From Gordonia sihwensis NBRC 108236 (GTDB lineage Bacteria > Actinomycetota > Actinomycetes > Mycobacteriales > Mycobacteriaceae), in the NCBI RefSeq assembly GCF_000333035.1, contig NZ_BANU01000013.1, positions 62,001 to 126,000 on the forward strand: 64,000 nt of DNA, read 5' to 3'. Of this stretch, positions 33,780 to 57,053 are shown in pieces. Both the position numbers and the translations under genes were made by a program. The notes under the pieces were generated by a model. The model made no database searches and was not told the DNA's origin. It saw nothing but the letters and a program-made list of their open reading frames with translations. The number at the start of each line of letters is the position of its first letter. Position 1 is the first letter of the stretch.

Positions 33780-35000
33780 ATGGATTTCGAGTTCGACGCG
33801 AAGACCGAGGAACTGCGGGAGAACCTCCTGGAGTTCATGGATCAGTTCGTGTACCCGGCCGAGCCGGTGTTCGCCGAGCAGCTGGCCGCGCTCGAGGACC
33901 CGTGGGATTGGGACAGCGTGCCGGTCCTCGCCGAACTGCGGGCCGAGGCCCGCAGGCGCGGACTGTGGAATCTGTTCCTGCCGGGCGAACACGGGGCGGG
34001 ACTGACCAATCTGCAGTACGCGCCGCTGGCGGAGATCACCGGCCGCAGCCCCGGGCTGGCCCCCGCCGCACTCAACTGTGCCGCGCCCGACACCGGCAAC
34101 ATGGAGGTCCTGGCCCAATACGCGAACGCCGAGCAGCAGCGCAAATGGCTGACCCCGCTGCTCAACGGCGAGATCCGCTCGGCGTTCGCGATGACCGAGC
34201 CGGATGTCGCCAGCTCGGACGCGACCAACATCGAACTGTCGATCGTCCGCGACGGTGACGAGTACGTCATCAACGGGCGCAAGTGGTGGATCACCGGTGC
34301 CATGAGCCCCAACGCGAAGATCTTCATCGTGATGGGGAAGACCGATCCGTCCGCGGAGCGGCACGCGCAGCAGTCTATGATCCTCGTCGAGCGCGACACC
34401 CCGGGTTTCGAGGTGGTGCGCGGGATGCACGTGCTCGGCTACGACGACCACGATCACGGCGGCCACGCCGAACTGCGGTTCACCGACGTGCGCGTCCCGG
34501 CGGCGAACCTGATCGGGGCGGAGGGCGACGGATTCGCCATCGCTCAGGGCCGGCTCGGACCGGGCCGCATCCACCACTGCATGCGGTCGATCGGCATGGC
34601 CGAGCGTGCGCTGGAGATGATGTGCCGGCGAGCCGCGAGCCGCGTCGCCTTCGGCAAACCGCTCGCCGAACAAGGTGTGATCCGCAACTGGATCGCCGAA
34701 TCGCGGGTCAAGATCGAGCAGTTGCGGCTGTTGGTCCTGAAGACCGCGTGGCTGATGGACACCGTCGGCAACCGCGGCGCCCACACCGAGATCCAGGCCA
34801 TCAAGATCGCCACCCCGTCGACGGTCGAGTGGATCCTGGACAAGGCGATTCAGACGCACGGCGCCGGCGGACTCTCCCAGGACTTCCCGCTCGCCAACTA
34901 CATCGCGGGCATCCGGACGCTGCGGTTCGCCGACGGGCCGGACGAGGTGCACAAGAATTCCCTCGCGCGCGCCGAACTCCGCAGGCAAGGGACTCGCTGA
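33780..35000 (+). CDS. ACAD11/LvaC-type acyl-CoA dehydrogenase-like enzyme
   Basis: 406 residues. The ACAD11 signature stretches are all present: [43 protein letters not shown] and [10 protein letters not shown]. The Glu-Gly-Thr catalytic loop of ordinary acyl-CoA dehydrogenases is replaced by ADGPDE, as in ACAD11. Family members convert 4-phosphoryl-acyl-CoA, losing phosphate and rearranging toward an enoyl- or 3-hydroxyacyl-CoA. It pairs with the upstream kinase (split version of the fused animal protein). Confidence 0.9.
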
Positions 35001-37284: not shown

Positions 37285-37308
37285 CCTCGGCGAACCGGAG
37301 GCGACGAG

Positions 37309-37354
37309 ACGCGCCGTCGGCGGACGTGACCACGTCCGCCGACGGCGCGTTTTC
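37309..37354 (+). terminator. Intrinsic terminator of the nine-gene operon
   Basis: A perfect 20-bp inverted repeat (37309–37328 and 37331–37350, arms beginning ACGCGCCGTC) with a 2-bp centre is followed by TTTC. It lies 24 bp after the last stop. Confidence 0.92.
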
Positions 37355-37402
37355 GCTGTGCACGACGGTCGTCTCCTCGGACGCTCGCGCTGGGCGTTCA
37401 GG

Positions 37403-37422
37403 CATTGACGTTGACGTCAATG
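37403..37422. promoter_or_regulatory. TetR operator candidate upstream of the MHS transporter
   Basis: CATTGACGT-TG-ACGTCAATG is a perfect inverted repeat with 9-bp arms, 48 bp before the transporter start. The likely ligand is the TetR protein encoded two genes on at 38887. Confidence 0.8.
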
Positions 37423-37470
37423 TAAAGCATGATGAGTGTCACGCATCACACTTCGAGACCGAGGAGGGTC

Positions 37471-38856
37471 ATGAGAAATCCAACTGGTGCGGTGGCAGCG
37501 CAGGGGACCGAGGAACTGTCCGCGCACCGCAAACTGCTGGCCGCCGGTCTGTTCGGAAGCTCCATCGAGTGGTACGACTTCTTCGTCTACGGCACCGCAG
37601 CGGCGCTCGTCTTTCCGAAGATCTTCTTCCCGGACGCCTCGGCGCTGGTCGGCACCCTGCTCGCGTTCAGCACCTTCGCGGTCGGATTCATCGCCCGCCC
37701 GCTGGGCGGCATCCTCGCCGGCCACTTCGGCGACAGGATCGGCCGCAAGCCGATGGTCCTGGCCTGCCTGATCTCGATGGGACTGGCGACCTTCCTGATC
37801 GGATGCCTGCCGTCGGCGGCCGCGATCGGCTCGGCCGCGCCGATCCTTCTCGTGACCCTGCGATTCATCCAGGGGCTCGCGTGCGGCGGCCAGTGGGGCG
37901 GCATCGTCCTGCTGCTCACCGAATCGGCAGGCCCCAAGCGCCGCGGATTCGCCGGGACGTTCGGTCAGATGGGAGTGCCGCTGGGTCTGGTGATGGGCAA
38001 CCTGGCGATGATCATCGTCAACGCCTCGACGTCGGATGCGGCCTTCCTGAGCTGGGGCTGGCGGATCCCGTTCTGGGCCAGTGCCGCCCTCATCCCGCTG
38101 GTGCTGTACATCCACTTCAAGGTCGAGGACTCACCGGAGTTCCGTCGACTGCAGGAGACCGCCGCGGCCAGGCGTGATACCGAGCAGATCGCCCAGGCGC
38201 CGCTGTCGGAGGCCATCCGCTTCCACTGGCGCAAGATCCTGCTCGGCGCGGGTCTGCTGGCCGCGACCAACTCGGCCTTCTATGTGGCGATCGCCGGATT
38301 CCTGGCCTACGGCACCAAGTCCGCGGCGGACAACGGCCTCGGCATGGACCGGACCACCGTGCTCGCCGCCATCATGGTGGTCTCCGTCCTGATGCCCGTG
38401 GTGATCGCGTGGGCGGGTAAGGCGTCCGATTCGATCGGCCGCCGACCGTTGATCCTGCTCGGCGGCGGCGTGCTGCTCCTGTGGGCGTTCCCGTTCTTCT
38501 GGCTCGCGAACTCCGCATCGGGCGTTCTCCTCTTCTTCGCGATGATGATCAGCAGCATCGGGCAGGCGTTGACGTACGGACCGCTCGCCGCCTTCATGGC
38601 CGAACTGTTCGAGCCCCGGCTGCGCTACTCCGGCGCCTCACTCGGCTACCAGATCGCCGCCGTCGCCGTCTCCGGCGTCGCCCCGCTCGTCATGACCTGG
38701 ATCATCGCCGAGACGGCGTCGACCACCGGAGTGTCGATCTATCTGGCGGCGATGGCACTGGTCACCGTGGTCTGCGCCTGGCGGCTGCCGGAGACCAACG
38801 GTGCGGCCGTCCGCACCGATCCGGAGGCGGTGCCGGGCGTGCCGGCCGCCGCTTGA
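37471..38856 (+). CDS. MHS-family (MFS) organic-acid:H+ symporter
   Basis: 461 residues with 12 predicted membrane helices and MHS marks: GSSIEWYDFFVYGTAAAL, GHFGDRIGRKPM between helices 2 and 3, RFIQGLACGGQWGG, and SDSIGRRP in the second half. Relatives import dicarboxylates, shikimate, aromatic or other organic acids with protons. ATG 37471 follows GAGGAGG. It starts the transport-ligase-carboxylase operon and sits under a palindromic operator. Confidence 0.9.
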   Translation: MRNPTGAVAAQGTEELSAHRKLLAAGLFGSSIEWYDFFVYGTAAALVFPKIFFPDASALVGTLLAFSTFAVGFIARPLGGILAGHFGDRIGRKPMVLACLISMGLATFLIGCLPSAAAIGSAAPILLVTLRFIQGLACGGQWGGIVLLLTESAGPKRRGFAGTFGQMGVPLGLVMGNLAMIIVNASTSDAAFLSWGWRIPFWASAALIPLVLYIHFKVEDSPEFRRLQETAAARRDTEQIAQAPLSEAIRFHWRKILLGAGLLAATNSAFYVAIAGFLAYGTKSAADNGLGMDRTTVLAAIMVVSVLMPVVIAWAGKASDSIGRRPLILLGGGVLLLWAFPFFWLANSASGVLLFFAMMISSIGQALTYGPLAAFMAELFEPRLRYSGASLGYQIAAVAVSGVAPLVMTWIIAETASTTGVSIYLAAMALVTVVCAWRLPETNGAAVRTDPEAVPGVPAAA

Positions 38857-38886
38857 CGGCGCTCCGGCGTCCTTGAAAGGCCGACC

Positions 38887-39537
38887 GTGTCACAGCAGAC
38901 TGTCACAGTGAGCACCACTCAAGAGCGTGCCCGTGCCAGCCGCAAGGACGCCGGAGCAGCCCGCCGCAACCAACTCCTCGCCGCCGCCGCCGAGTGCTTC
39001 GACGAGTTCGGCTACTCCGCGGTCACCGTCGAGATGATCGCGAACCGCGCGCACACCTCGCGCCCCACGTTCTACGCCTACTTCCGATCGAAGGACGAGG
39101 TCTTCCTGGCCCTGGTGGAGAAGCTGGCAGACGAGCTGAACGTGACGCAGAGCCTCACCGGGCTGGAGGACGCCGGTGCACGCGAGATCCTCGCCGCGAC
39201 CACTCGCGCGTACCTGGACGCCATCTTCTCGATGGGCGGCATCGTCGGGCTGATCGACGTCACCGCGTCCGTGCGGCCGGAGGTCGCCGAGATCTGGACC
39301 TCGGGAGCCGACCGCCGGATCCGCGGTTACGCGCGATTCCTCCGGAACCTTCCCGGCGGAACCCTCGATCCGGCGATCGAGCCGGAACGACTGGTGCAGA
39401 TCATCGGCGACGCCATCCACCACGGCGCCAAGCGGCTCGCCGGGGCGGATGAGGAGGCCAAGGAGCGGTTCGTCCTCGACATCATCGCGGTCACCGAGCG
39501 TCTGCTCGGACTGACCGACGACCACCCGGCCCCGTAG
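38887..39537 (+). CDS. TetR-family regulator
   Basis: 216 residues with an HTH at about 25–72 (RRNQLLAAAAECFDEFGYSA, RAHTSRPTFYAYFRSKDEVF) and a ligand domain. GTG 38887 is preceded by GAAAGG. It lies inside the operon between transporter and ligase genes and probably binds the 37403–37422 palindrome. The inducer would be the imported acid or its CoA ester (inference). Confidence 0.88.
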   Translation: MSQQTVTVSTTQERARASRKDAGAARRNQLLAAAAECFDEFGYSAVTVEMIANRAHTSRPTFYAYFRSKDEVFLALVEKLADELNVTQSLTGLEDAGAREILAATTRAYLDAIFSMGGIVGLIDVTASVRPEVAEIWTSGADRRIRGYARFLRNLPGGTLDPAIEPERLVQIIGDAIHHGAKRLAGADEEAKERFVLDIIAVTERLLGLTDDHPAP

Positions 39538-39568
39538 CGGGCCACCCTGAACAGGAGCAGTTCCACCC

Positions 39569-41296
39569 ATGTCCCCACAGAGCACGCCGGCTGACGTCCG
39601 GGCCACCGACAGCACACAGACGCCACCGGCAGCGGTTCTCGAGGCGGCGGCCGCGGAGCTCGCGGCCCGGCAGCTGGCGAATTGGCCGGCCGCCGTGCCC
39701 CGAGAATTCGAGTACCCGGCCGGACGTCCGACGATGGTCGACCACCTGCGGCATTGGGCCGCACTCCGTCCCGACGCGCCGGCGATCACCTTCTACGACC
39801 GCGACGTCTCCTATGCGGAGTACGACGAGTTCTCGGACCGGTTCGCGGGTTGGCTCGAGTCGGTGGGCGTTCGGGCGGGGGACCGGGTCGGAATCCACCT
39901 CGCCAACTGCCCGCAGTTCCACATCGCGATGCTCGGCGTGCTCAAGCTCGGCGCTGTCCATGTTCCGGTGAACCCGCTGTTCAAAGGCTTCGAACTCGAG
40001 CACGAGCTCACGGATGCGAACGTGACGGTGCTGCTCACCTCACCCGAGCAGCGTGACCTCGTCGAGTCGGTGCGTGCCCGCACCCCGGTGCGACTGGTCG
40101 CGACGACGGCACTGGACGACATGCGCGCACATCCGTCGTCGACCGCGTCGGACTGGGCCGAGATCATGCGCGCCCCGCGTGCGCAGGTGCGCCCGGCCGA
40201 TCCGGACGTGCTCGCGGCGTTGAACTACACGGGCGGCACCACCGGTATGCCGAAGGGGTGCGAACACACGCAGCGGCACATGGCGTACACGGCCGCCACG
40301 GCCACCCTCGCCGGCGGAACCGGCCTGGGCGACGCGGACGCGGTCTCGATGAACTTCCTGCCCGTCTTCTGGATCGCCGGCGAGGACTTCGGCATCATCA
40401 AGCCGCTGATCAACGGCCAAAGGGTGGTGCTGCTGACCCGGTGGGACGCCGCAACGGTCGTCGACCAGGTGGCCGCCTACGGTGTCACCGACCTCGTGGC
40501 CACCGTCGACAGTTACCTGGAGATCCTCGACCTGCCCGGCCTGGACCCGGCTGCGCTGCGCTCATTGAGGTCCACTCTCGCCGTGTCGTTCGTGACCCGG
40601 CTCGATCCGCCGATCCGGGCCCGATGGCGGGCCGCGGTCGGATCGGTCCTGCGCGAGGCCTCGTACGGCATGACCGAGACGCACACCGCCGACACGTTCA
40701 CCCTCGGCTTCCAGGACGGCGACCGCGATCTGCTCGCCGATCCGGTGTTCTGCGGTCTGCCGGTTCCCGGAACCGACATCCTGGTCGTCGACGACGACGG
40801 CCGTCCGCTGCCGGTCGGCGAGGTCGGCCAGATCATCGTCCGGAGTCCGTCGATCCTGAGCGGTTACCTCGACGATCCCCGGGCCACCGCCGACGCGCTC
40901 CGCGACGGGTGGCTGTACACGGGCGACCTCGGCCGCTTCGACGAGTGGGGTGCGCTGCACTACCTGGCGCGGACCAAGGAGATGATCAAGATCAACGGCA
41001 TGAGTGTGTTCCCGTCGGAGGTCGAGGCACTGATGCGCCGCCACGAGGGGATCGAGGCGATCTCGGTGGTTCCTCGGCCGGACCCCGACAGGGGGCAGGT
41101 CCCGGTCGCCTTCGTCGTGGTCACCGAGAACGGCCCGGACGAGCGGTCGCTGGTGGCCTGGGCGAGGGAGAACCTCGCGACCTACAAGGTGCCGGAGGTG
41201 ATCGTCGTCGACGCGCTGCCGATGACGGCCACCGGCAAGGTCCGCAAGGGCGAACTCCTCGAGCGCGCCGCGGCGACGACCGGGGGCGCGGCATGA
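39569..41296 (+). CDS. AMP-forming acyl-CoA ligase
   Basis: 575 residues of the ANL superfamily: P-loop LNYTGGTTGMPKG, SYGMTETH, YTGDLGRFDEWG and the C-terminal catalytic Lys in MTATGKVRKGEL. It activates a carboxylic acid to its CoA thioester via an acyl-adenylate. An extra 50-residue N-terminal segment precedes the fold. The stop overlaps the carboxylase start (ATGA), so product and next enzyme are made together. Confidence 0.92.
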   Translation: MSPQSTPADVRATDSTQTPPAAVLEAAAAELAARQLANWPAAVPREFEYPAGRPTMVDHLRHWAALRPDAPAITFYDRDVSYAEYDEFSDRFAGWLESVGVRAGDRVGIHLANCPQFHIAMLGVLKLGAVHVPVNPLFKGFELEHELTDANVTVLLTSPEQRDLVESVRARTPVRLVATTALDDMRAHPSSTASDWAEIMRAPRAQVRPADPDVLAALNYTGGTTGMPKGCEHTQRHMAYTAATATLAGGTGLGDADAVSMNFLPVFWIAGEDFGIIKPLINGQRVVLLTRWDAATVVDQVAAYGVTDLVATVDSYLEILDLPGLDPAALRSLRSTLAVSFVTRLDPPIRARWRAAVGSVLREASYGMTETHTADTFTLGFQDGDRDLLADPVFCGLPVPGTDILVVDDDGRPLPVGEVGQIIVRSPSILSGYLDDPRATADALRDGWLYTGDLGRFDEWGALHYLARTKEMIKINGMSVFPSEVEALMRRHEGIEAISVVPRPDPDRGQVPVAFVVVTENGPDERSLVAWARENLATYKVPEVIVVDALPMTATGKVRKGELLERAAATTGGAA

Positions 41297-44200
41297 AGCT
41301 GCTGATCGCCAATCGGGGCGAGATCGCCCTGCGCATCATCCGCACCGCCCGCGAGATGGGCGTATACACCGTCGCGGTGTACGCACCGGACGACGCCGCC
41401 ACACCGCACGTCGCCGCCGCCGACGAGGCCGTCGGACTGCCCGGTGAGGGCCCGGCCGCGTATCTCGACATCGACGCGGTGTGCAGCGCCGCGATCCGGA
41501 CGGGTGCCGACACCGTGCATCCGGGTTACGGCTTCCTGTCGGAGAACGCCGACTTCGCGCAGGCGTGCGCGGACGCTGGCATCACGTTCGCGGGCCCCGC
41601 ACCCGAGGTACTGCGGCGTTTCGGCGACAAGCAGGCCGCGCGCGCGGCCGCCGTCGAATGCGGGCTCGATGTGCTCGCCGCGACCGACGGCGCCGCCGAT
41701 CTCGCGCGGATCAGGGAGTTCGCGGGACGATGCCCCGGCGGTGTGATGCTCAAGGCGCTCGCCGGCGGCGGAGGGCGCGGGATGCGTCCGGTTACCGGCG
41801 ACGCAGATCTGGACGCCGCGTTCCGGTCCGCGGTCGCCGAGGCCGAACTCGGATTCGGCGACGGGCGGGTGTTCGCCGAGGAACTCCTCACCGGCGGTCG
41901 GCACATCGAGGTGCAGGTGGTCGGCGACGGCGCTGAGGCGGTGGCGGTCGGCGACCGCGACTGCAGCGTCCAGCGCCGTCGACAGAAACTCATCGAGGTG
42001 GCGCCCGCACCGGGACTGGGCGACGGCTTGCGCACTCGGTTGCACGACGACGCCGCGCGACTGGTCGCGGCGGCCGGGTACCGCGGGCTCGCGACGGTCG
42101 AGTTCCTGGTGCAGGGGTCGCGCGCGGTGTTCCTCGAAGTGAATCCCCGCATCCAGGTGGAACACACGATCACCGAGGAGGTCACCGGTCTGGATCTGGT
42201 GGCGATCGGACTGACCCTGGCCGGCGGGGGCCGGCTCGCCGATTGCGGTCTGGCCACGATCCCGCCCACGACTGCCTGCGCGGTGCAGACGCGCGTCAAC
42301 CTCGAGACGATGAGCGCCGACGGTTCGGCGATGCCGACAGCGGGCAGGCTCGACGCCTTCACGCCGCCGACCGGACCCGGCGTCCGCGTCGACACCTTCG
42401 GCGCGCCCGGCCTGGAGACCTCGTTGCGGTACGACTCCCTACTCGCCAAGGTCGTCGTTCGCGCGCCGACTCTCTCGTCGGCCTACGCGAAAGCCGACCG
42501 CGCGCTGTCGGAGTTCGTCATCGACGGGCCGCAGACCAACATCGGGCTGCTGCGGGCGATCCTCGCGGACGCCGAGTTCGCTCAGGGGCCGGTCGACACC
42601 GGATTCCTCGACCGCAGGCTCGCCGACCTGCTGCCCGCGTGCGACGACGACGACGGCGCGCGGCAGACCGTCGCCGCCGACCTCGACGAGGACGAACAGG
42701 CGGTGGCCGCGCCGCTGACCGCCACCGTCATCCACGTCGCCGAACCGGGACGCGTGGTCGCCGCCGGCGAGCCGCTGGCGGTACTCGAAGCGATGAAGAT
42801 GCAGCACGAGGTGATCGCCGAGACCTCGGTGCGGGTGATGCGGGTGCTCGCGGCCGAAGGCGCGACGGTGCGCGCGGGCACCCCTCTGGTGGTCTACCGC
42901 CCGGACGCTGCGGCGAGCGGCGCAGCCGACACCGCGGCCGACGACCTCGACCGGAACCGCGCCGACCTCGACGAGGTGAACGCACGGCATCGTCTCACCC
43001 GGGACGAGGCCCGCCCCGATGCGATCGCCCGTCGCCATCGGATCGGCAGGCGCTCCGCACGGGAGAACATCGCCGACCTGGTCGATCCCGGCAGCTTCGT
43101 CGAGTACGGCGGGCTCGTCATCGCCGCGCAGAAGGCGCGGCGGTCGGAGGACGATCTGATCGCCAACACCCCGGCCGACGGGTTGGTGGGCGGAATCGCG
43201 ACCATCGCCGCCGACGCCTTCGGTGCCGACCGTGCCGCCGCGGTGGTCATGTCCTACGACTACACCGTCCTCGCGGGCACCCAGGGTTGGCGCAACCACG
43301 CCAAGACCGATCGCATGCTCGACATCGCGCTCAAGCGGGAGATCCCCGTCGTCTTCTTCACCGAGGGCGGCGGCGGCCGTCCGGGCGACACCGACCTCGA
43401 CATCGTCGCGGGCCTGGATGTGTCGACCTTCCGGTCGATGGCCCGTGTGCGCGATCGCGCACCGTCGATCGCCGTGGTGTCCGGCCGGTGTTTCGCGGGC
43501 AACGCGGCGCTGGCGGGCGCCTGCGACATCCTCATCGCCACCCCCGACGCGAACATCGGCATGGGCGGTCCGGCGATGATCTCCGGCGGCGGGCTCGGCG
43601 AGTACCCGCCCGAGGCGATCGGCCCGATCGACGTGCAGCGCCGCAACGGCGTGGTCGACCTCGTCGCCGACGACGAGGCGCACGCCGTCCAGCTCGCTCG
43701 GCAGGTGCTGGGCTACTTCCGGGGCGCGGTGGACGAGTGGACCGCCCCCGACGGGCGTCAGGCGCGCCACGCGGTACCGGAGAACCGGCTGCGGGCATAC
43801 GACGTGCACGCCGCGGTGAGGGCGGTCGCGGACGTCGATTCGGTTCTGGAACTGCGCCCGGATCACGCACCCGGAATCGTCACCGGTTTCCTGCGCGTGG
43901 AGGGCCGGCCGTTCGGATTCGTCGCCAACAGCAGCCTTCATCTCGGCGGCGCGATCGACGCCGCCGGAGCCGACAAACTCGCCGAGTTCCTGGAACTGTG
44001 TCAGCTGCGCGGACTCCCCGTGGTCTCGTTCTGCGACACCCCGGGTTTCATGGTCGGGCCGGAATCGGAGGAGCAGGCCACCGTGCGCCGCTTCTCCCGC
44101 CTCTTCTCGGTCGGCGCCCGACTGACCGTGCCGTTCGGCGCGGTGATCCTGCGCAAGGGCTACGGACTCGGCGCGATGGCGATGGTGGGCGGGAGCTTCC

Positions 44201-44448
44201 GGGCGCCGCAGTTCACAGTGGCCTGGCCGACCGGTGAGATCGGCGGCATGGGTCTGGAGGGCGCCGTGCGGCTCGGCTTCTCGAAGGAACTCGCCGCGGC
44301 CCCGGACGAGGGTGCGCGGACCGAACTGTACGACCGACTGGTCGCGACGATGTACGCGCGCGGACGCGCCCTGAGCGCGGCGGCGACCTTCGAACTCGAC
44401 GACGTGATCGACCCGGCCGACACCAGATCGTGGATCCGCACGCTGTAG
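41293..44448 (+). CDS. Single-chain biotin-dependent acyl-CoA carboxylase (LCC-type)
   Basis: 1051 residues in one chain: biotin carboxylase (1–445; ANRGEIALRI, GGGGRGMR, EVNPRIQVEHTITEE), a linker, a BCCP domain with EAMKM and biotinyl Lys502, then fused carboxyltransferase N and C halves (about 560–1051; GGGGRPGDT, NIGMGGPAM, CDTPGFMVGPESEEQ, GYGLGAMAM). The layout matches the long-chain acyl-CoA carboxylase of Mycobacterium avium. Substrate chain cannot be read; the coupled ligase probably supplies it. ATG 41293 is used; the longer upstream open frame is antisense-like filler. Confidence 0.9.
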   Translation: MKLLIANRGEIALRIIRTAREMGVYTVAVYAPDDAATPHVAAADEAVGLPGEGPAAYLDIDAVCSAAIRTGADTVHPGYGFLSENADFAQACADAGITFAGPAPEVLRRFGDKQAARAAAVECGLDVLAATDGAADLARIREFAGRCPGGVMLKALAGGGGRGMRPVTGDADLDAAFRSAVAEAELGFGDGRVFAEELLTGGRHIEVQVVGDGAEAVAVGDRDCSVQRRRQKLIEVAPAPGLGDGLRTRLHDDAARLVAAAGYRGLATVEFLVQGSRAVFLEVNPRIQVEHTITEEVTGLDLVAIGLTLAGGGRLADCGLATIPPTTACAVQTRVNLETMSADGSAMPTAGRLDAFTPPTGPGVRVDTFGAPGLETSLRYDSLLAKVVVRAPTLSSAYAKADRALSEFVIDGPQTNIGLLRAILADAEFAQGPVDTGFLDRRLADLLPACDDDDGARQTVAADLDEDEQAVAAPLTATVIHVAEPGRVVAAGEPLAVLEAMKMQHEVIAETSVRVMRVLAAEGATVRAGTPLVVYRPDAAASGAADTAADDLDRNRADLDEVNARHRLTRDEARPDAIARRHRIGRRSARENIADLVDPGSFVEYGGLVIAAQKARRSEDDLIANTPADGLVGGIATIAADAFGADRAAAVVMSYDYTVLAGTQGWRNHAKTDRMLDIALKREIPVVFFTEGGGGRPGDTDLDIVAGLDVSTFRSMARVRDRAPSIAVVSGRCFAGNAALAGACDILIATPDANIGMGGPAMISGGGLGEYPPEAIGPIDVQRRNGVVDLVADDEAHAVQLARQVLGYFRGAVDEWTAPDGRQARHAVPENRLRAYDVHAAVRAVADVDSVLELRPDHAPGIVTGFLRVEGRPFGFVANSSLHLGGAIDAAGADKLAEFLELCQLRGLPVVSFCDTPGFMVGPESEEQATVRRFSRLFSVGARLTVPFGAVILRKGYGLGAMAMVGGSFRAPQFTVAWPTGEIGGMGLEGAVRLGFSKELAAAPDEGARTELYDRLVATMYARGRALSAAATFELDDVIDPADTRSWIRTL

Positions 44449-47046: not shown

Positions 47047-47949
47047 GTGACGTCTCCCGGCTTCTCCACCCCGTCCGATCCCATCGATACGCCCACGGCC
47101 GCGCCTGCCGAACTCGCCGAGATCGCCCGGCGGGTGGCCGAACGGGCCGCCGAGCACGTCCGGACGCGGCGGGTGGAACTGTTCGCGCCGACGGGCACGA
47201 GGGTCGCCGACGGCTCGGTCGAGTCGAAGTCGACCCCGACGGATCCGGTCACGGTCGCCGACCGGGAGTCCGAGGCACTGATCCGGAACCTGCTGCGCGC
47301 CGAGCGGCCCGACGACGAGGTCCTCGGCGAAGAGGACGGCGGGTCCGTCGACGTCCCCACCGGGGTCCGCTGGGTGGTCGACCCGATCGACGGCACGGTG
47401 AACTTCCTGTACGGGATACCGGCGTTCGCCGTGTCGGTGGCGGCACAGATCGACGGACGCTCGGTGGCCGGCGCGGTGGTCGACGTCGCCCGCGGGGTGA
47501 CGTATTGGGCGAGCGCCGGCGGGGGAGCGTGGGCGACGGGACTCGGGCCGGACGCGATCCGACTGTCGTGCAATCCGATCACCGACGTCGGGCTGGCTCT
47601 CGTGGCCACCGGATTCGGGTACTCGCGCGAGCGTCGCGTGCGCCAGGGCGCGCTGATCGCGCAGCTGCTGCCCGAAGTGCGCGACATCCGGCGAGTCGGC
47701 GCCGCGGCGCTGGACCTGTGCATGGTGGCATCGGGTGCCGCCGATGCCCACATCGAGCACGGACTGAGCCCGTGGGACTGGGCGGCGGGCGGACTGATCG
47801 CAGCGGAGGCCGGGGCGACGGTCCTCCTGCCGCCCGCGGACTCGCGATCGAGCGACGGCCACGTGACGGTCGCCGCAGCCGGCGGCATCGCCGACGAGTT
47901 CGTCGACGTCCTCGAGCGGATCGGAGCGCTGCGCGCGTTGCCCGACTGA
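47047..47949 (+). CDS. suhB: Inositol-1-monophosphatase family protein (SuhB-like)
   Basis: 300 residues with the IMPase metal sites GEEDGG, WVVDPIDGTVNF and LSPWDWAAGGLIAAEAG. It dephosphorylates inositol monophosphate or a related sugar phosphate with Mg2+. Position next to ppgK-sigA matches M. tuberculosis suhB (Rv2701). No ribosome-binding site precedes the GTG, and a promoter is placed to start transcription at the codon. In mycobacteria the next gene is cei; here 8.3 kb of catabolic genes intervene. Confidence 0.92.
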   Translation: MTSPGFSTPSDPIDTPTAAPAELAEIARRVAERAAEHVRTRRVELFAPTGTRVADGSVESKSTPTDPVTVADRESEALIRNLLRAERPDDEVLGEEDGGSVDVPTGVRWVVDPIDGTVNFLYGIPAFAVSVAAQIDGRSVAGAVVDVARGVTYWASAGGGAWATGLGPDAIRLSCNPITDVGLALVATGFGYSRERRVRQGALIAQLLPEVRDIRRVGAAALDLCMVASGAADAHIEHGLSPWDWAAGGLIAAEAGATVLLPPADSRSSDGHVTVAAAGGIADEFVDVLERIGALRALPD

Positions 47950-47973
47950 GCCCGCGTACCGCCGGCCGGCCCG

Positions 47974-48891
47974 TCATTCGTCGGTTGCGGCTCCGGGCGC
48001 CAGCACCACGTCGAACCGCACTCGTGACCACGGTCCGTCGATCACTCGGCCGTCCGGAGTCGGTGTGCCCGCCGGCTGCTCGATGAAATCCTTGACCAGC
48101 GAATCCTTGACTCCGAACACGCTGTCGCGGTCCAGCAGCTCGTCGCCGCGGACGAAGATGTGCGTCACCAGGCGCCGGCAGCCCGGCGCGGTGACCATGA
48201 AGTGCAGGTGCGAGGCGCGGTAGGGCGATCGGCCCACGGCCTGCAGCATCTTGCCTACCCGGCCGTCGTAGGGGATCGGATACGGCGTCGGCTTGATCCC
48301 CCAGAACCGGTACCCGCCGTCGTCGTCGGTGAACAGGTGGGCGCGCGCCGCGACGCGCCCGTCGTCGTGCTGAACGTCGTAGAGACCCTCATCGTCGGCC
48401 TCCCACACCTCGATCCTGGCGTTGCGGACCGGATCGCCGTCGACGTCGCGGACGGTGCCCTCCACCCAGCACGGCTGTCCCGCAGCGCCGAACGCCACGT
48501 CGCCGCCGAGTTCGATGCGGGGGGCTCCGTCGACGAAGAACGGGCCGAAGACGGTCGCCTCGGTCGCATCTCCGTAGGCCTCGTTGTTGATGGCGATGGT
48601 CTGCATCGACGCGCCCAGCGTGTCCGAGAGCAGCACGAACTCCTGTCGCTTGTCATCGGTGATGTGACCGGCGTCGGTGAGGAAGTCGATGGCGACCTGC
48701 CACTCGTCCTCGGTCAGCCGCACATCGCGGAGAAGGGCGTGCAGATGTTCGACGAGCGAGACCATCACCCGTCGCAGACGCGGATCGGCGCAGTCGTCGA
48801 AGGAGTGGACGACGCGCTGTACGACGTCCTCTTCGACCGCCCGTTGGCGTTCGGAGATCGGGTGGTTCGAGTGGTCGGGGATGGTGGTCAT
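47974..48891 (-). CDS. Hydroxyquinol 1,2-dioxygenase (intradiol)
   Basis: 305 residues. An N-terminal helical dimerisation domain (about 1–105) precedes the beta-sandwich. The iron ligands can be seen in [10 protein letters not shown] (Tyr), [12 protein letters not shown] (Tyr and His pair), while [11 protein letters not shown] marks the intradiol core. It cleaves benzene-1,2,4-triol to maleylacetate. The start overlaps the stop of the maleylacetate reductase gene (ATGA). The intradiol plus reductase pair defines the lower hydroxyquinol pathway. Confidence 0.9.
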
Positions 48892-49949
48892 CGGGGTTCG
48901 TCTCCTTCCCACGCCGCGCGGAGCAACGCGGTGAGGTCGTCGGTGCTGACGGGTTTCGGGTTGTTCGTCGGGATGGCTGCCAGAATGGGCGGGACCGCTG
49001 CGGCGATACCTTCTCCGGGCATGCCGTAGTCCTTGAGCGCGCGGGGCGCCGACACGGCGCGGCGCAGGGCGGCCAGACCGGCGACCGCGGTCTGGCTGCC
49101 GAACGCGCGAGAGATGCGTGCGGCGGCCTCCGGTGCGCCGGGCGCGTTGAAGGCCAGCACGTGAGGCAGGACCACCGCGTGCGTCTGCGCGTGGGGCAGG
49201 TCGTACATCCCGCCCAGGACATGACAGATCTTGTGATGCATGCCCGAACCCGCCGAGGCGAACGACACCGCCGCGAGGTACGCACCGTAGAGCGTCTGCT
49301 CGATGGCGTCGAGGCCTCCGGCGCCGTCGACCAGCCCGATCATCCCGGCTCGCAGTCCGCGGATCCCCTCCTCGGCCAGCGCTCGGTCGATCGGATCCGC
49401 GCGCGGGCCCCACATCGAGTCGACGCAGTGGGCGAGCGCGTTGAGCCCGCTGGCGACGGAGAGATCGGCGGGCAGGGACTGCAGGAGGGTCGCGTCGTAC
49501 ACGATCGACGTGGGCAGGACGCGCCGGTCGGTTCCAGTGGTCTTGACTCCGTTATCGGTCATCCCCCAGACGTTCGTGGCTTCGCTGCCCGCGTAGGTCG
49601 TCGGCACGGCGACGATCGGCACACCGCTGCGCAGGGCCACGGCTTTGGCCAGGCCGGTGGCCGAGCCGCCGCCCACGCTGACGAGGACGTCGACGTCACC
49701 GGTGCGGGCAGCGGCCCGGGCGCGCTCGGCGACCTCGATCGGCACGTGCATGGCGACGTCGTCGTGCCGCACCGCGAGCGGGAGCTGCGCGGCGACGGCC
49801 TCCACCTGTTCGGCGCTCGGACCGGAGTGGATCAGCATGGCCCGAGTGCCGCCGACCGCCGCGACCTCCGCGGCCACGGCTCCCGGCGCGTCGCCCCGCG
49901 CGAACACCACGCGCTGCGGCAGCGTCTCGTGAATGAAGTCGAAGCTCAT
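48888..49949 (-). CDS. Maleylacetate reductase
   Basis: 353 residues of the iron-containing alcohol dehydrogenase fold: [30 protein letters not shown], and metal-ligand region [10 protein letters not shown] with [19 protein letters not shown]. It reduces maleylacetate to 3-oxoadipate with NAD(P)H, feeding the beta-ketoadipate route. ATG 49949 lies 2 bp after the hydroxylase stop. Confidence 0.9.
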
Positions 49950-49951
49950 CG

Positions 49952-51740
49952 TCAGCGCCCCAAGACCGTTCGCATCGCCGTCGACAGTTCGCGGGTCGGG
50001 TCGTCGGGCAGCTGGTTCGAGCGCCAGGCGATGTGCTTGTCGGGCCGCACGAGGAGCGCCCCGGACTCCGAGACCTCGCGGAGCTTCGCCCAGTCGTAGT
50101 ACAGATCGGTCACGTCGCGGCCGGGACCGATCACGACTGCTTCCAGAGGTACTCCGAGCTCGCGGGCGACGGCGTCGGCCGCCTGCGTCCACGGACTGCC
50201 CGCGACGCCGGTGACGAGGGTCCAGCGATCGTACGGCGCCAGGTCGAGCATCGCTTTGCGCGAGACGTTGTCGCCGACCCAGGCGTGGGGCAGATGTGCA
50301 CCCGGCGACGTGGACGGGACGTAGTACAGATCGCGATCCTCACGCCCGGCCGGCGGCTGCGGCTCGGTGCCGTCGGAGACGATCGCAGCCGAACGGTAGA
50401 ACTGGCCGAGTTCCACCCCGTGCGCGTTGAACTCGTAGTTCTTGGTGTTCATGGCTTTGACGAGGGCAGCCCGTTTCGCCTCACCGGCCGGCGAGTCGGC
50501 TTTCCGCTCGGCGATCGCGGCGGCCATCTCGTCGCCCTCCAGACCGACGACGCCGAGTGCGGTGAACATGTCGGAGAACTCTCGCGCCGACTTGTTCGCC
50601 CGGGTGACGATCTGTTCGGCGACGGGGGCGCGTTCGGCGGTGTAGGAATCGAGCAGCGACGGTGCCGCCTGCCCGCGCAGAACCGCGGCGATCTTCCAGG
50701 CCAGATTGTACGAGTCCTGCACCGAGGTGTTGGACCCCAGACCGTTCGACGGCGGGTGCCGATGAATGGCGTCGCCGACGCAGAACACCCGGCCCTTCTG
50801 CAGGTCGGTGGCGTACATCTCGTTCACGCCCCACAGGCTGTAGCCGGTGATCTCCGGCTCGAGATCCGGCACCCCCAGCAGGTCGCGAATGATGCCGGTG
50901 GCCATCTCGTCGTCCAGATCCGGCGGCGGCTGGTTGATGTCGTAGCCCCATACGATGAGCCACTCGTCCCACGGGCGCACCATGCGCACCAGTCCGGTTC
51001 CGATGCCGCCGACATTCGATCCGGGCTGGATCACCCAGTAGAGAACACTCGGTCGATGGTCAACCAGGGAGGCGATGTCGGCTTTGAGATGTTCATCGAT
51101 CCGGCGATGTCCATCGCGCCTTCGAACGTCAGACCGATGTCCTCGGCCACGCGTGAGCGGGCGCCGTCGGCCCCGATCAGGTACTTCGCGCGGATCCGGT
51201 ACTCCTGGCCGGTGAGACGGTCCCGCACGTCGACGGTGACGCCGTTCTCGTCCTGCGAGTGGCCGAGATACTCGGTGGAGAAGCGGGTCTGCGTTCCGCG
51301 GACGGTCGCGTTGCGGACCAGGATGGGCTCGAGGTAGGTCTGCGGGATGTCCACCGTGAGGCACGGCGAGGCGAGCCGGTAGTCGCCTCGCGGTCGGGGC
51401 GGGTGCCCCAGGTTCGGATCCGGCCGATCTCCTCGCCTGCGATCGACGTGCAGAAGACGGTGTCGCCGATCAACTCGTGGGGAGTGGCCTCGGCGAGGAC
51501 CTGATCCTCGATGCCCATGTCCCGGAAGACCTCCATCGAGCGTTGGTTGGTGATGTGCGCTCGGGGCGTGTTCGCGGTCCAGCGGTACTTGGTGATCACG
51601 ATGTTCGGGATGCCCAGCGTCGACAGGAACAGCGCTGCCGACGCGCCTCCGGGTCCGGAACCGACGATCAGGACATCGGTCTCGACGATGTCCCCCTCGG
51701 GCACCTCGGTTGCGGCGATGCCGTCGTTGAAAACAGCCAT
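49952..51740 (-). pseudogene. Aromatic-ring FAD monooxygenase (phenol/resorcinol-hydroxylase-like), two frameshifts
   Basis: Three reading frames together encode one PheA/TfdB-like hydroxylase. Frame A (51740 to about 51386) has the FAD motif VGSGPGGASAALFL and RAHITNQRSMEVFRDMG. Frame B (about 51386 to 51087) carries GADGARSRVAEDIGL. Frame C (about 51087 to 49952) has HRPSVLYWVIQPGS, VGDAIHRHPPSNGLGSN and a thioredoxin-like C-terminus. The span is 1789 bp; adding one base at each break restores 597 codons. ATG 51740 follows AGGAAGG. It would have made hydroxyquinol for the next two enzymes. Real mutation or assembly error cannot be told apart here. Confidence 0.9.
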
Positions 51741-51805
51741 GATCTGGCCTTCCTGTGAGATTTGATGCCTGTGCGATGTGCTGCGGTCGTGCGCCGGCGG
51801 GCGGT

Positions 51806-52876
51806 TCAGCGGGGCTCGCCGAGACCGAAATGCATGAGGTCTTCTCCCACCACCAGGTGGCCGGAGAACCCCTGCTGCGCCTGCTGCCACTTCTCGACCG
51901 GCGTATTGCCCGGCACCAGGTGTGTGAGGACCAGGGTGTCGACGCCCGCGGCCTCGGCTTGAGCGCCGACCTCCTCGATCGCGGTGTGCGCAGCGAGCAT
52001 GTGCTGCATGAGGTTGGGGTCGGGTCTGGCGGAGTTCGGCCCGAGCAGGGAGTCCACCCAGTCCATGTCGATGCACTCGTGGAGGAGGATGTCCGCGCCG
52101 TCCGCGATCGTCACCAGATTGCTGCACACGCCGGTGTCGCCCGAGACGACGATCGAGCCGTCCGGGGTGTCGAAGCGGAAGGCGAAGGCCGGGAAGATCG
52201 GCCGGTGGTCGACGAGGATGGCGGTCACCCGGACGTTCTCGTCCGCATAGACCTCGAACGGTTCCATCGCCGGACTCGGGTCGCCGTTGGGGTCGTCGCC
52301 GGTCGTTCCCGGGAGCACGATGTCGTGGAACTCGAAGATCTCGCGCAGATCCTGCTTGGCGTTGTCGCGCATCCGGTCGTTGATGTCGAGGGCGTACGCC
52401 TGGAGCAGCCTGGCCGTCGACTCCTCGAGACCGGGTGTCGGCGACTCCGGATTGAAGACCTCGGGGATCGGATCCCGATTGGTCTCGTCGAAGATCGGCG
52501 GCAGGACGCGACGATCGCCGGGGCCGTAGACCTGCACCGGCTGCCGGAGACCGTCGGAACCGTTGTGCCAGGCGAGGAGCAACAGGTTCGGATAGTCGAC
52601 CATGTGGTCGGAGTGGTGATGGGTGATGAACACGCCGCGGAGGTCGTCGAGACCCTTCTGGAATCCGGCCGGGCCGAGACCGGCCTTGCGGTACCGGGGA
52701 CCCCACCCCTCACCGCAGTCGATCAGGTACACCGAGTCGTTCACCGTGATCGCGGTCGAAATGCCGGCGCGGTCCGATCCGTCCCACCACGGCGGTCCGC
52801 CGGAGGTGCCGAGCAGGGTGACCCGGGTGCGATAGGCGGTGGCCTGGGCGTTGTCGAGAGGCTGATGAGTTGTCAT
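51806..52876 (-). CDS. Metallo-beta-lactamase-fold hydrolase
   Basis: 356 residues with VTLLGTSGGPPWW, the zinc motif FITHHHSDHMVDYP, SGDTGVCSNLV and LTHLVPGN. It resembles RNase Z/arylsulfatase-like MBL proteins. A role as lactonase or ester hydrolase on an imported aromatic precursor is possible, but nothing in the sequence settles it. It lies between the ABC transporter and the hydroxylase on the same strand. Confidence 0.82.
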   Translation of the reverse strand: MTTHQPLDNAQATAYRTRVTLLGTSGGPPWWDGSDRAGISTAITVNDSVYLIDCGEGWGPRYRKAGLGPAGFQKGLDDLRGVFITHHHSDHMVDYPNLLLLAWHNGSDGLRQPVQVYGPGDRRVLPPIFDETNRDPIPEVFNPESPTPGLEESTARLLQAYALDINDRMRDNAKQDLREIFEFHDIVLPGTTGDDPNGDPSPAMEPFEVYADENVRVTAILVDHRPIFPAFAFRFDTPDGSIVVSGDTGVCSNLVTIADGADILLHECIDMDWVDSLLGPNSARPDPNLMQHMLAAHTAIEEVGAQAEAAGVDTLVLTHLVPGNTPVEKWQQAQQGFSGHLVVGEDLMHFGLGEPR

Positions 52877-52922
52877 GGCGGCGTTCTCCTAGAGGGCTTT
52901 CTCCTGCTGGCGTTTCGGGTGG

Positions 52923-53732
52923 TCAGGCGATGCTCGCGTGCGACTGCGCGGCCTGGATGAGCTCGAAGACCTCGGTGCGGTACTTCGCGTACGCGGGCAG
53001 CGTCTTGGTCTCGAGTTGGTCCCGTGGCTGCGGTAGATCGACGTCGATGTTCCGCGTCACTCGGGTCGGAGCACCGGAGAGGACGATGACTCGATCACCG
53101 AGGTACACGGCCTCGTCGATGTCGTGGGTGACGAAGACGATGGTGGTGTCGAAGTCCTTCCGCACACGCAGCACCAGGTCCTCGAGTTCGATGCGGGTCT
53201 GCGCGTCGACGGCGGCGAACGGCTCGTCCATCAGCAGCACATCCGGCTGATACGCGAGACCCCGGGCGATCGCCGCGCGCTGCTGCATGCCGCCCGACAT
53301 CTGCCAGGGGTACAGGTCGTGCTTGCCCGCCAGGCCCACCGCTGTGAGAACCGAATCGATCCGGACCGCGCGCTCGGCCTTGCGGACCGTGCGGCGCAGC
53401 GGAAGTTCGATGTTGTCGGCGACGCTCAGCCACGGGAACAGGGAGCGACTGTAGTCCTGGAAGACGACGGCCAGCTTCGCGGGCGGTCCGGTCACCGTGT
53501 CACCCTCGAACAGGCAGGCGCCGTCGGTGGGTGCGAGCAGGCCGGCCATGCACCGCAGCAGGGTGGTCTTGCCCGAGCCCGAGGGGCCGACCACGCAGAC
53601 GAACTCGCCGCGGCGCACGGTGAAGTCGATTCCGGCCAGGATCTGGACATCGCCGTAGGATTTGCGCAGGTCGCGCAGTTCCATGAGCGTCGTCGGTGCG
53701 GTGACATCGGTTTCGGTGGCGTCGACAGACAT
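52923..53732 (-). CDS. ABC transporter ATPase, NitT/TauT type
   Basis: 269 residues with Walker [15 protein letters not shown]-loop [12 protein letters not shown], signature [15 protein letters not shown], Walker B VLLMDEPF and H-loop [10 protein letters not shown]. It is SsuB/TauB-like. ATG 53732 has AAAGGA upstream; an in-frame ATG lies two codons earlier. It ends a permease-permease-ATPase set whose solute-binding gene is truncated. Confidence 0.93.
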
Positions 53733-53734
53733 GA

Positions 53735-54517
53735 TCATCCTTTTGCGTTCAGGGCCCGCATGCCGTACTGCCAGCGCAGCACGTACTTCTCGATGCGGAC
53801 GAAGACGAGATTGGCGAGGTATCCGAGCAGGCCGAGCAGAACGGTGCCCGCCCAGGTCTCCGGGACCGCGAAGGTCTGCTGGGAGTTCAGGAGGTAGAAG
53901 CCGATGCCGTTGGTCGACGCCACCATCTCGGAGACGACGATCAGGATGATCGAGATCTGCAGAGTGGTGCGCAGGCCGGCGAAGATGGCGGGGCCGGCAT
54001 GCGGGAGCAGAACGTACCGGATGTATTGCGGGAGCGTCAGTCGGTACGACCGCGACATGTCCTTGACGAGCGGGTCGAGGGATCGAACTCCGTCGATGGT
54101 GTTGAGCAGGGTCGGCCAGACCGCACCCACGACGATGATCGAGATGTTCATCGCCGGACCGATGCCGAAGACCAGCAGGCCGATCGGCAGCAGAACGGGA
54201 GGCGGCAGCGAGCGCAGGAACTGGATGATCGGCTCGCACGCGGCACGCAGGACCGGCGACAGCCCGATCAGCAGTCCGAAGACTATCCCCAGTGCGCCGG
54301 CGATGAGGAATCCGATGAGGAACTTCTCCACGCTGGGGACCACGTCGGTCCGCATGCCGTGGACGATCAGGTCGTCCCACATCGTGGTGAGGATGGTCTT
54401 CAGGGAGGGAAAGTACAGCGATTCACTCGTCGCCGAGGCGAACCACCAGGTCAGAACCAATGCGGCGGGCAGCCAGGCGCGAAGGAGGATCGCCCGCCAG
54501 AGACGACCGGTCTTCAT
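53735..54517 (-). CDS. ABC transporter permease (SsuC/TauC-like) 1
   Basis: 260 residues with about six membrane helices and the EAA loop region (DMSRSYRLTLPQYIRYVLLPHAGPAIFAGL). ATG 54517 overlaps the TGA of the other permease gene as TGATG. It pairs with permease 2 and the ATPase for uptake of a small organic acid, sulfonate or aromatic. Confidence 0.9.
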   Translation of the reverse strand: MKTGRLWRAILLRAWLPAALVLTWWFASATSESLYFPSLKTILTTMWDDLIVHGMRTDVVPSVEKFLIGFLIAGALGIVFGLLIGLSPVLRAACEPIIQFLRSLPPPVLLPIGLLVFGIGPAMNISIIVVGAVWPTLLNTIDGVRSLDPLVKDMSRSYRLTLPQYIRYVLLPHAGPAIFAGLRTTLQISIILIVVSEMVASTNGIGFYLLNSQQTFAVPETWAGTVLLGLLGYLANLVFVRIEKYVLRWQYGMRALNAKG

Positions 54518-55383
54518 CACTTCGCCTCCTCTCGGTGACTCGGGTGCCAGAACAGCAGCGGCTTCTCGGCTGCCTTGAACACGGTGTTGACCAGGAGCCC
54601 GAGCAGGCCCGCGGCGAAGATCAGGGCGTACATCTCCTTGATCGCGCCTGCCGACTGAGCGACCACGATGTCCTGGCCCAGACCTGCGGCGCCGCCGATC
54701 ATCTCGGTGACGATGGAGATGATGAGTGCGATGGCGGCCGCGATCCGCAAGCCGGTCATCGCGAACGGCGTCATCGACGGAATGACGATTCGGCTCGTGG
54801 TGAGCCACCAACCGAGGTGGTAGCTGCGCGCCATGTCGAGACTGGTGGCGTTCACCTCACGGACGCCGTAGACCAGCTGGGTCAGCAGCGGCCAGATCGC
54901 GCCGAACACGATCAGGACCATCTTCATTCCCGGCGTCGGGCCCCACAGCAGCAGACCGAGCGGGATCAGGGCCACCGGCGGGATGGGTTTGAGGAACTCC
55001 ACGACGAGCCAGGTCGATTCCTCGGCGAATCGCGACAGGCCGAGGAGGATGGACAGCGGCGCGGCGATGACGATGATGACCACGAGACCGAGGATCACGA
55101 TCGACACCGTCGACCAGACGGACGCCCAGAAGGCTCCCGATCCGAGCAGGTCGAGCAAGGCGCCGAGCATCTGGCCTGCGGAGGGCAGTGCGGTGGCCGG
55201 CAGGACGCCGAGTGACCAGAGCACCTGCCACACGGCGAAGACGAGGGCGACGGCGCCGGCACCGTAGAGGAATCGTCCGAGACGGGACTCGGCAGATGCG
55301 TTGATCGTCCGCACCCATCGCCGGATCGGCCGGTGCATGGTCGTGGCCGAGGTGGAGTCGGTCACGGTGACGAGCTGACTCAC
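54517..55383 (-). CDS. ABC transporter permease (SsuC/TauC-like) 2
   Basis: 288 residues with about six membrane helices and the EAA-type loop (DMARSYHLGWWLTTSRIVIPSMTPFAMTGL). The GTG start 55383 overlaps the stop of the solute-binding remnant (GTGA), the normal coupling in such operons. Since the upstream gene has lost its 5' end, translation and transcription of this gene are probably impaired. Confidence 0.88.
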   Translation of the reverse strand: MSQLVTVTDSTSATTMHRPIRRWVRTINASAESRLGRFLYGAGAVALVFAVWQVLWSLGVLPATALPSAGQMLGALLDLLGSGAFWASVWSTVSIVILGLVVIIVIAAPLSILLGLSRFAEESTWLVVEFLKPIPPVALIPLGLLLWGPTPGMKMVLIVFGAIWPLLTQLVYGVREVNATSLDMARSYHLGWWLTTSRIVIPSMTPFAMTGLRIAAAIALIISIVTEMIGGAAGLGQDIVVAQSAGAIKEMYALIFAAGLLGLLVNTVFKAAEKPLLFWHPSHREEAK

Positions 55384-55648
55384 GGCCAGATCATCTCCTT
55401 CGTATCGACGGGCTTCGAGGTGAAGCCGAGGTGGTTCATGAGGTCCGCGGTGCCCTGGAGAGCGTCGGCGCTGATCTGGTCCGTGTAGACCGGGAGACGC
55501 ATCTTGGCGAAGACCTGTGGCGGCAGCTTTCCGTACTTCTCCAGCACGGCGCCCACCGCTGCGGGATCCTTCGCTGCGACGAGATCGGCGCGGTTGACCG
55601 CCCGGACGAACGCTTTCACCAGCTCCGGGTTGGTTTCGGCGAACGGGC
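55380..55648 (-). pseudogene. ABC solute-binding protein, C-terminal remnant
   Basis: About 88 codons remain (FAETNPELVKAFVRAVNR ... TKEMIWP), matching the last third of an SsuA/TauA (NMT1) solute-binding protein. Homology stops near 55648, where plus-strand LysR homology begins. About two-thirds of the gene, with signal peptide and ligand pocket, is missing. The frame continues past the junction only as the antisense of the LysR remnant. Confidence 0.85.
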
Positions 55649-56207
55649 CCGCGCTCCGGACGTGTCGGTCGAACTCTCCGATCCCGACCCGGCCGGAGTC
55701 CTCGGCATCGTGGCGGAGGGTCGGGCGGACGTCGGATTCGTCGCCACCGCGGACGTCTCCCGCCTGGCCTCCGCATTCCCCGGACTCCACGTCCGATTCC
55801 TGGTGGATCTGCCCCTGGTCCTGGTGGTCTCAAGCGGTCGGCATGTCGCCGGCCTGCGTGATCTGGAGTCGGAGACGTGGATCGTGCCCGCGGCGATTCA
55901 GGGATTCCCCGGGCTCGACGAGCTGACCGATCAGTTCTGGCGACGGAACGACGTGACCCCCGCCCGTATCCAGCAGGTGTCGACTCTCCAGACGGCGCTG
56001 CCGCTCATCGCCGCGGACATGGCCGTGGGGCTGCTGCCGCGTGACGGATTCGAGGTGGTCGGCGGGCAGGTCGCGGCGATCGATCTGGCCCTCGACATCC
56101 CGCCGTTGCGCGCCGCGATGGTCTGGTCCGCCGAGATGCAGCCCGCACCCAGTCTCGATCTGTTGTTCCAGGTGATCGATCAGGCGGTCGCCGACGCCGC
56201 CATCTGA
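55646..56207 (+). pseudogene. LysR-family regulator, C-terminal remnant
   Basis: About 187 codons of a LysR effector domain remain (ARAPDVSVELSDPD, GIVAEGRADVGFVA, LVLVVSSGRHVAGL, STLQTALPLIAADMAVGLLPRDG). The HTH DNA-binding domain and start are absent. Open frame continues to the left only through the antisense of the solute-binding remnant, with no plausible start. A divergent LysR gene next to an ABC operon is the usual layout, so both genes were cut by one deletion. Confidence 0.85.
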
Positions 56208-56227
56208 CCGCGGCGGCGCCGTGACCG

Positions 56228-56917
56228 CTAGCAGGCCTGGTTGTGCACCGCTTCGATGAGTGATCGATCGATCGCCGTCTTCGGGTTCTTCGGGTCCACC
56301 GACCGCAGGGCCTCGAGTGCGGCCTGCGAATCCTGAGTCGGACGTCCCTGCGTGTAGTACTCGCCCAGTGCGAGGTCGACGTCGGTACCGGTGCGGCCGT
56401 CGTCGACCAACTGAGCGCACGGCGCGGCGAGCCACACCGCCGCCGCGCCCGCCTGACCGGCCTGACCGAATCGGATCTGAGCGACGCAATGCAGATTCTG
56501 GTCGGGGTAGACGGTGTCGTCGGCGTACGCGGGATCGCCGGGGGTGAACCCCTCGGCCACGAGATCGTCGCTCACCGAACGCGCCGAACCACGGGGCGCG
56601 GCGGAGTTGAAGACGCGCACCTTGAACGTCGACAGACCCGCCGGCGCGACGCTGAGCATCTCGGTGGAGCTGACCGGCTTCAGATTCGGCGGGGGCGTCG
56701 CCGGTGCCCCGGAGCGGTCCGACGGCGACGCGGCCTCGGGCATGTTGCAGTCCGTGGGGCGCGCCTCGTCACCGCCGCCGGTCAGCGCGACCGACCAGGC
56801 GGTGATGGCCGCCACGGCGAGGACCGCGACGACGATGAGGGCGGGCATCAGGTGGCGGCGCCGGAACGGACGGCCCTTCACATCGGTGGTGTAGCCGGTG
56901 GCGATCTTCGAGACCAA
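56228..56917 (-). CDS. cei: Cei-like envelope integrity protein (LytR_C domain)
   Basis: 229 residues: a cytoplasmic start (VKGRPFRRRHL), one membrane helix (about residues 24–45) and an extracytoplasmic LytR_C-like domain (FKVRVFNSAAPRGSARSVSDDL), with three or more cysteines (DCNM, LHCVAQ, APCAQL, NQAC) that may form disulfides. It matches M. tuberculosis Rv2700 (Cei), needed for envelope integrity. Normally adjacent to suhB. Confidence 0.88.
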   Translation of the reverse strand: MVSKIATGYTTDVKGRPFRRRHLMPALIVVAVLAVAAITAWSVALTGGGDEARPTDCNMPEAASPSDRSGAPATPPPNLKPVSSTEMLSVAPAGLSTFKVRVFNSAAPRGSARSVSDDLVAEGFTPGDPAYADDTVYPDQNLHCVAQIRFGQAGQAGAAAVWLAAPCAQLVDDGRTGTDVDLALGEYYTQGRPTQDSQAALEALRSVDPKNPKTAIDRSLIEAVHNQAC

Positions 56918-57053
56918 GACGCTCTAGCACCTTCTTCCGGAATCAGGGGTCGCCGACCACTGTAGAGGGCTCCGCGACGACGGTGCGGGAAGGTGTCCGG
57001 CGCGCCCTCATAAGTCGAGTTCGGTGCCTCTGACCGGCGCATTCGACGAGTGG

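Follow-up and report, generated by a model that had tools for sequence, protein, structure and literature searches.

Truncated solute-binding and LysR genes meet at a single joint in a catabolic island of Gordonia sihwensis that is very probably in decay

Gene content of the locus

The window, that is, the whole stretch of 64,000 nucleotides of Gordonia sihwensis NBRC 108236 DNA that was analysed, corresponds to bases 62001-126000 of contig C52 in a 4.14 Mb draft assembly of 64 contigs that is rated 100% complete, and this one draft is the only sequence for the species compared here. The locus lies between a suhB-like gene and cei and is described with reference to three related clusters: a complete cluster in genome G850, of the same family and another genus (L134); a cluster in genome G053, of the same order and another family (L064); and a segment of a Streptomyces sp. 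NBC_01340 plasmid (L100 12001-15692). Coordinates are those of the window, and percentages refer to the corresponding gene of the cluster named.

47047..47949, plus strand: left flank, a suhB-like gene of the native chromosome that adjoins cei in loci of the genus
47974..48891, minus strand: intradiol dioxygenase, interpreted as hydroxyquinol 1,2-dioxygenase and free of internal stops (68% to L134, 66% to L100)
48888..49949, minus strand: iron-type alcohol dehydrogenase, interpreted as maleylacetate reductase and free of internal stops (58% to L134, 61% to L100)
49952..51740, minus strand: flavin monooxygenase broken into pieces that lie in frames -3, -2 and -1 (alignment to the intact L100 and L134 homologues)
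51806..52876, minus strand: MBL-fold hydrolase, no internal stop (PF12706; 77% to L134, 65% to L064)
52923..53738, minus strand: ABC ATPase, no internal stop (PF00005; 76% to L134)
53735..54517, minus strand: ABC permease 2, no internal stop (PF00528; 68% to L134)
54517..55383, minus strand: ABC permease 1, no internal stop, with a GTG start that overlaps the stop of the solute-binding gene and AAGGAG upstream (PF00528; 57% to L134)
55380..55650, minus strand: C-terminal remnant (about 90 aa) of an NMT1/SsuA-type solute-binding protein (SBP), from pairwise matches to intact relatives and DNA alignment
55646..55650, no strand: putative deletion joint, where the SBP and LysR homologies meet with no evident filler, from base-by-base DNA alignment to L134
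55650..56207, plus strand: LysR effector-binding-domain remnant (about 185 aa) with C-terminus and stop present and HTH and linker missing (PF03466, L134 LysR)
56228..56917, minus strand: right flank, cei, encoding an envelope integrity protein (NF035953, 266.6 bits, cut-off 150)

The left-flank gene is one that we take to be suhB, and the transport genes presumably belong to the NitT/TauT (SsuABC-type) class of importers, with which the window shares the families PF00528 and PF00005; PF09084 is the SBP family of the relatives. The window differs from these importers in that its SBP is cut to about the last quarter to third. Of the permease, ATPase and cognate SBP that make up such an importer, the permeases and ATPase are free of stops, and no PF09084 match exceeds its cut-off.

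The types and synteny of the enzyme genes fit a hydroxyquinol-type catabolic cluster, the substrate being predicted from sequence; the pathway name hydroxyquinol (resorcinol-type) is our assumption, drawn from the kinds of gene present and their synteny. Neither the dioxygenase nor the reductase is named by a curated model above its cut-off: catechol/chlorocatechol dioxygenase models match the former below cut-off, and for the latter only dehydrogenase models of the Fe-ADH kind match, all of them below cut-off. The frame breaks of the flavin monooxygenase lie near 51384-51408 and 51085-51088 when it is compared with its homologues in L100 and L134. The L100 homologue, which is intact (597 aa) unlike that of the window, resembles 2-hydroxybiphenyl 3-monooxygenase and 2,4-dichlorophenol 6-monooxygenase in matches to PDB sequences. 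Sequencing error is conceivable as the cause of the frame breaks; it would not make a deletion of 1.15 kb.

The six other island genes have no internal stops, and the GC3 of the two remnants (0.875 and 0.849) is still coding-like, nine intact genes within the island or next to it having values of 0.87-0.90. These two features suggest that decay of the island is probably recent, or that some of its genes are still selected. Elsewhere in the window, to the left of a sigA-like gene, positions 34283-44448 hold ORFs that by eye appear acyl-CoA dehydrogenase-, MFS-, TetR-, AMP-ligase- and carboxylase-like, perhaps another catabolic cluster.

Two gene remnants, their joint and the intact form

The SBP remnant keeps only the residues that match about 246-334 of the 336 residues of the L134 SBP, about the last quarter to third of the protein. 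The intact L134 SBP aligns with the window at 44% identity over 89 aa (E 4.9e-17) up to 55655, which corresponds to residue 246/336, and the intact L064 SBP at 41% over 98 aa (E 1.2e-16) up to 55679, which corresponds to residue 232/335, the last few residues being a weak tail. At the DNA level the homology to L134 reaches 55646. The export signal and the complete pair of lobes of a functional NMT1/SsuA SBP are lacking from this remnant. Because the Pfam NMT1 match to the remnant alone falls below its cut-off (16.3 bits versus 20.5), the SBP assignment rests on pairwise matches and synteny.

On the plus strand, the frame 55431-56204 matches PF03466 LysR_substrate with E 1.7e-20 over profile positions 29-207/209, and positions 31-207/209 are still covered when only 55650-56204 is profiled. 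The LysR homology begins at 55650 with the L134 query (residue 116/305, 44% identity) and at 55647 with the L064 query (residue 115/312). HTH_1 (PF00126), the N-terminal domain of a functional LysR-type regulator, is absent from the window frame in a profile search at E <= 1 and present in the LysR of both L134 and L064.

The two truncated genes meet at a single joint, ordered and oriented as in the intact relative. In steps of 10 bases from 55620, identity to L134 on the SBP side runs 10, 9, 8 and then 3, 3, 3, while on the LysR side it runs 3, 4, 3 and then 9, 7, 6, which places the switch at 55646-55650. A sequence-only reading of this DNA had put the end of the solute-binding homology near 55648 and the start of the LysR homology near 55646, with the 5′ part missing from both genes; the truncations are as it described and its positions are right within a few bases. 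Aligning the flanks to relatives with an intact cluster, as it had proposed, is what maps the breakpoints to this interval. Even in the closest relative without the deletion, LysR and SBP are only about 44% identical to the window, so that neither the exact breakpoint bases nor any microhomology can be fixed. Microhomology at the joint was considered on account of an overlap of about 6 bp between the protein homologies (55650-55655) and set aside, as the DNA alignment to L134 gives abutting homology only. Two ORFs cross the joint, one of 136 aa on the minus strand and one of 258 aa on the plus strand, and neither looks like a sensible fusion protein because each starts in sequence antisense to the other gene.

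The intact divergent arrangement is present in two relatives. L134 has a complete cluster with divergent LysR and SBP genes in the same orientation as in the window, and it shares with the window the two permeases, the ATPase, the MBL hydrolase, the maleylacetate reductase, the hydroxyquinol dioxygenase and the flavin monooxygenase. Its SBP ORF (336 aa, minus strand, 9737-10747) and its LysR gene (305 aa, plus strand, 10816-11733) carry their Pfam domains, HTH_1 included, and the SBP starts with a hydrophobic stretch ending in LAAC, which we take to be a lipoprotein-like signal. Unlike the window, L134 has full-length LysR and SBP genes and an unbroken monooxygenase frame, and the 19 kb examined contain no match to suhB or cei. 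In L064, the LysR gene (3890-4828, minus strand) is divergent from an SBP-permease-permease-ATPase-MBL hydrolase series, as in the intact form, and it and the SBP gene (4952-5959, plus strand) are both full length; unlike the window, this locus gives no dioxygenase, reductase or monooxygenase match in the 14 kb examined.

The difference in alignment offset against L134 implies a deletion of 1,154 bp, and the coordinates of L064 imply about 1.19 kb. The implied deletion spans the LysR HTH, the SBP N-terminus with its lipoprotein-like signal (as in L134) and the entire intergenic stretch. The sequence-only reading had pictured an undeleted form in which the two genes diverge from a promoter region, and had explained both losses by a single deletion of roughly 1 kb or more. 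Two relatives have such an arrangement, and that both truncations are the outcome of one deletion of about 1.15 kb is supported by these alignments as the simplest reading, if not proven. Loss of the regulator's HTH and of the SBP signal peptide is likewise borne out by the intact relatives; the further claim that the operon promoter went too is more conditional, as read-through from cei may occur.

No evident copy of the missing 5′ parts lies elsewhere in the host genome. At E <= 1, the whole L064 SBP finds only the remnant (residues 236-328), and no protein of the host genome exceeds the PF09084 cut-off, although 12/14 control genomes have one; a single NMT1-like place on contig C60 scores below it (16.8 bits versus 20.5). 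The permeases and ATPase therefore appear to have been left without a binding protein of the PF09084 family, the one family that the search covered, and a substitute from another SBP family is conceivable. With the LysR query there are 16 matching places, and the 15 besides the remnant are all in open frames of at least 307 aa. No evident orphan LysR N-terminal piece is found among these 15, a result that is less certain since LysR genes are many: four of them (L107, L110, L116 and L118) align with the N-terminal part of the query alone, although the frames in which they lie are long. The window itself holds a second, distant LysR-like match at 9008-9724 (27% to the L134 LysR), at about the same place as C52:71014-71820 among the hits of the LysR query.

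Chromosomal setting and distribution of the island

Genomes of the genus have suhB and cei next to each other in convergent orientation. The 21 loci examined are those of the best matches in a search of 61 genomes with the DNA of 53800-56950, which hit 48 of them, together with two further stretches of G024. The two genes are adjacent in 18/18 loci that show both, with 9-198 bp between the aligned ends; the three loci without both genes are L005 and L068, which represent one G024 contig end, and L006, the ABC locus of G053. In G024, which has the best genus match to cei, a contig ends where cei does, and the empty site is therefore split over two contigs, seen in L005/L068 and L069; suhB adjoins the tail of cei on L069, which is counted among the 18. 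In the window, by comparison, 8,284 bp separate suhB from cei and are filled by the cluster (47950-56227, an island of about 8.28 kb).

At E <= 1e-45, none of the 58 genus genomes other than the host's has permease 2, and permease 1 is found at E <= 1e-60 in 2/389 family genomes, the host's own and G850. Because suhB and cei are adjacent in relatives and permease 2 is absent from the other genus genomes, the island is most simply explained as a horizontal acquisition in this lineage: it is missing from the genus relatives searched, and the empty suhB/cei site is present. At 0.676, the G+C content of the island is a little lower than in the flanks (0.703 and 0.696). No mobility gene is shown for the island and no target duplication is seen, the 125 bases at each island end sharing at most 6 nt, a value equalled or exceeded by 100/100 random window pairs.

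Parts of the cluster recur in other combinations. The plasmid segment L100 has the dioxygenase, reductase and flavin monooxygenase in the same gene order as the window, with about 75% DNA identity to window 47994-51681, while the permeases, ATPase and MBL hydrolase of the window are unmatched in the 27.7 kb examined. The flavin monooxygenase lies between the MBL hydrolase and the reductase in the window and after the dioxygenase in L134, and this difference in position suggests modular assembly of such clusters. At class level, the MBL hydrolase is found in the host's own genome only (1/394 at E <= 1e-110); at order level it is found in 9/394 genomes at E <= 1e-80, the host included, of which G053 is nearest. 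Six of the eight other carriers were examined, and in the five besides G053 (G458, G140, G446, G413 and G230) there is no permease match. Plasmid relatives of the MBL hydrolase are all below 60% identity (57 records; best among those listed 51.7%), and the plasmid search gives no LysR relative at E <= 1e-5. A contig profile scan with a two-sequence permease alignment gives one distant locus, in the Hamadaea MAG L071 (44%).

The fused arrangement is not seen elsewhere, either with the DNA of 53800-56950 in 61 genomes or in the permease searches of 59, 397 and 389 genomes. At E <= 1e-60, permease 2 has 52 carriers in the order, the host included (397 genomes), and the neighbourhoods of 4 of the 51 others were read: L064 has the intact divergent pair, L096 (G341) has a LysR gene divergent from permease 1 with the SBP gene after the ATPase, and L097 and L098 have no LysR match. 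A relative that conserves the fusion, named by the sequence-only reading as evidence against itself, has thus not come to light in this partial search. The arrangement of L096 indicates that the position of the SBP gene varies between clusters; the order in the window is that of L134 and L064.

Readings of the scar

Taken together, the locus is very probably an acquired catabolic island in decay, in which lysR and the SBP gene lost their 5′ parts, together with the promoter region between them, to a single deletion of about 1.15 kb. We infer one event, after acquisition, in which regulation and import were lost, and decay rather than rewiring.

The island may instead have been deleted already on its arrival in the lineage, which we regard as unlikely. 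At the search thresholds applied, the island is found in no relative within the genus, so that the order of events is unreadable, but both carriers found with the SBP gene beside a divergent lysR, L134 and L064, are intact. Less likely again is regulatory rewiring, in which the operon, lying downstream of cei on the same strand, is transcribed by cei read-through. The shared minus strand, the count of 0 terminator-like sites in a simple scan of 54000-57000, the retained AAGGAG and GTG start of permease 1 and the six genes without internal stops are all compatible with such read-through. However, the terminator count means little when shuffles average 0.7, the monooxygenase is broken, cei is separated from permease 1 by about 0.85 kb of remnant sequence, and an ABC importer without its SBP is not expected to work. 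An adaptive form of promoter capture appears very unlikely; in it, the deletion would have excised regulator and promoter and put the remaining genes under cei read-through, so that the MBL hydrolase and the enzymes of the hydroxyquinol pathway would be expressed constitutively at a low level, the importer and the monooxygenase being lost meanwhile.

An assembly artefact, in which the contig misjoins two places or drops about 1.15 kb, would be in keeping with a 64-contig draft but is highly improbable, as the joint lies within contig C52, at a distance of more than 8 kb from the window end, between colinear island genes and cei; a misjoin should also leave the missing SBP part somewhere in a genome rated complete, where it finds no match, and the joint is not spanned by the longest direct repeat reported for 55300-55950, which measures 17 nt. 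Two or more independent losses, for which the two separate frame breaks in the monooxygenase of the same island provide a precedent, are just as improbable, since the homologies come within about 5 bp of each other without evident filler, ordered and oriented as in the intact cluster, which is what one deletion predicts.

The preferred reading, a single deletion in an island acquired earlier, would then run as follows. An island of about 8.28 kb, comprising an importer, an MBL hydrolase, a monooxygenase, a reductase, a dioxygenase and a divergent LysR gene, would have been acquired horizontally between suhB and cei. One deletion of about 1.15 kb would have cost lysR its 5′ part and the SBP gene its 5′ two thirds, along with the promoter region between the two. 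Most likely this abolished inducible expression, with regulator and promoter gone, and import, with the SBP gone, and the pathway would then have been without value; the monooxygenase is broken too, and the scheme sets no order between its breaks and the deletion.

The kind of event is well known, ordinary gene decay, though unusually clean, and the general interest of the case is small. For annotation, the ORFs of 136 and 258 aa should not be taken as real genes, and neither a working importer nor aromatic degradation should be predicted from this genome. With its breakpoints mapped, the case shows an acquired catabolic cluster that has lost a regulator, a promoter region and an SBP, a single step being the simplest account.
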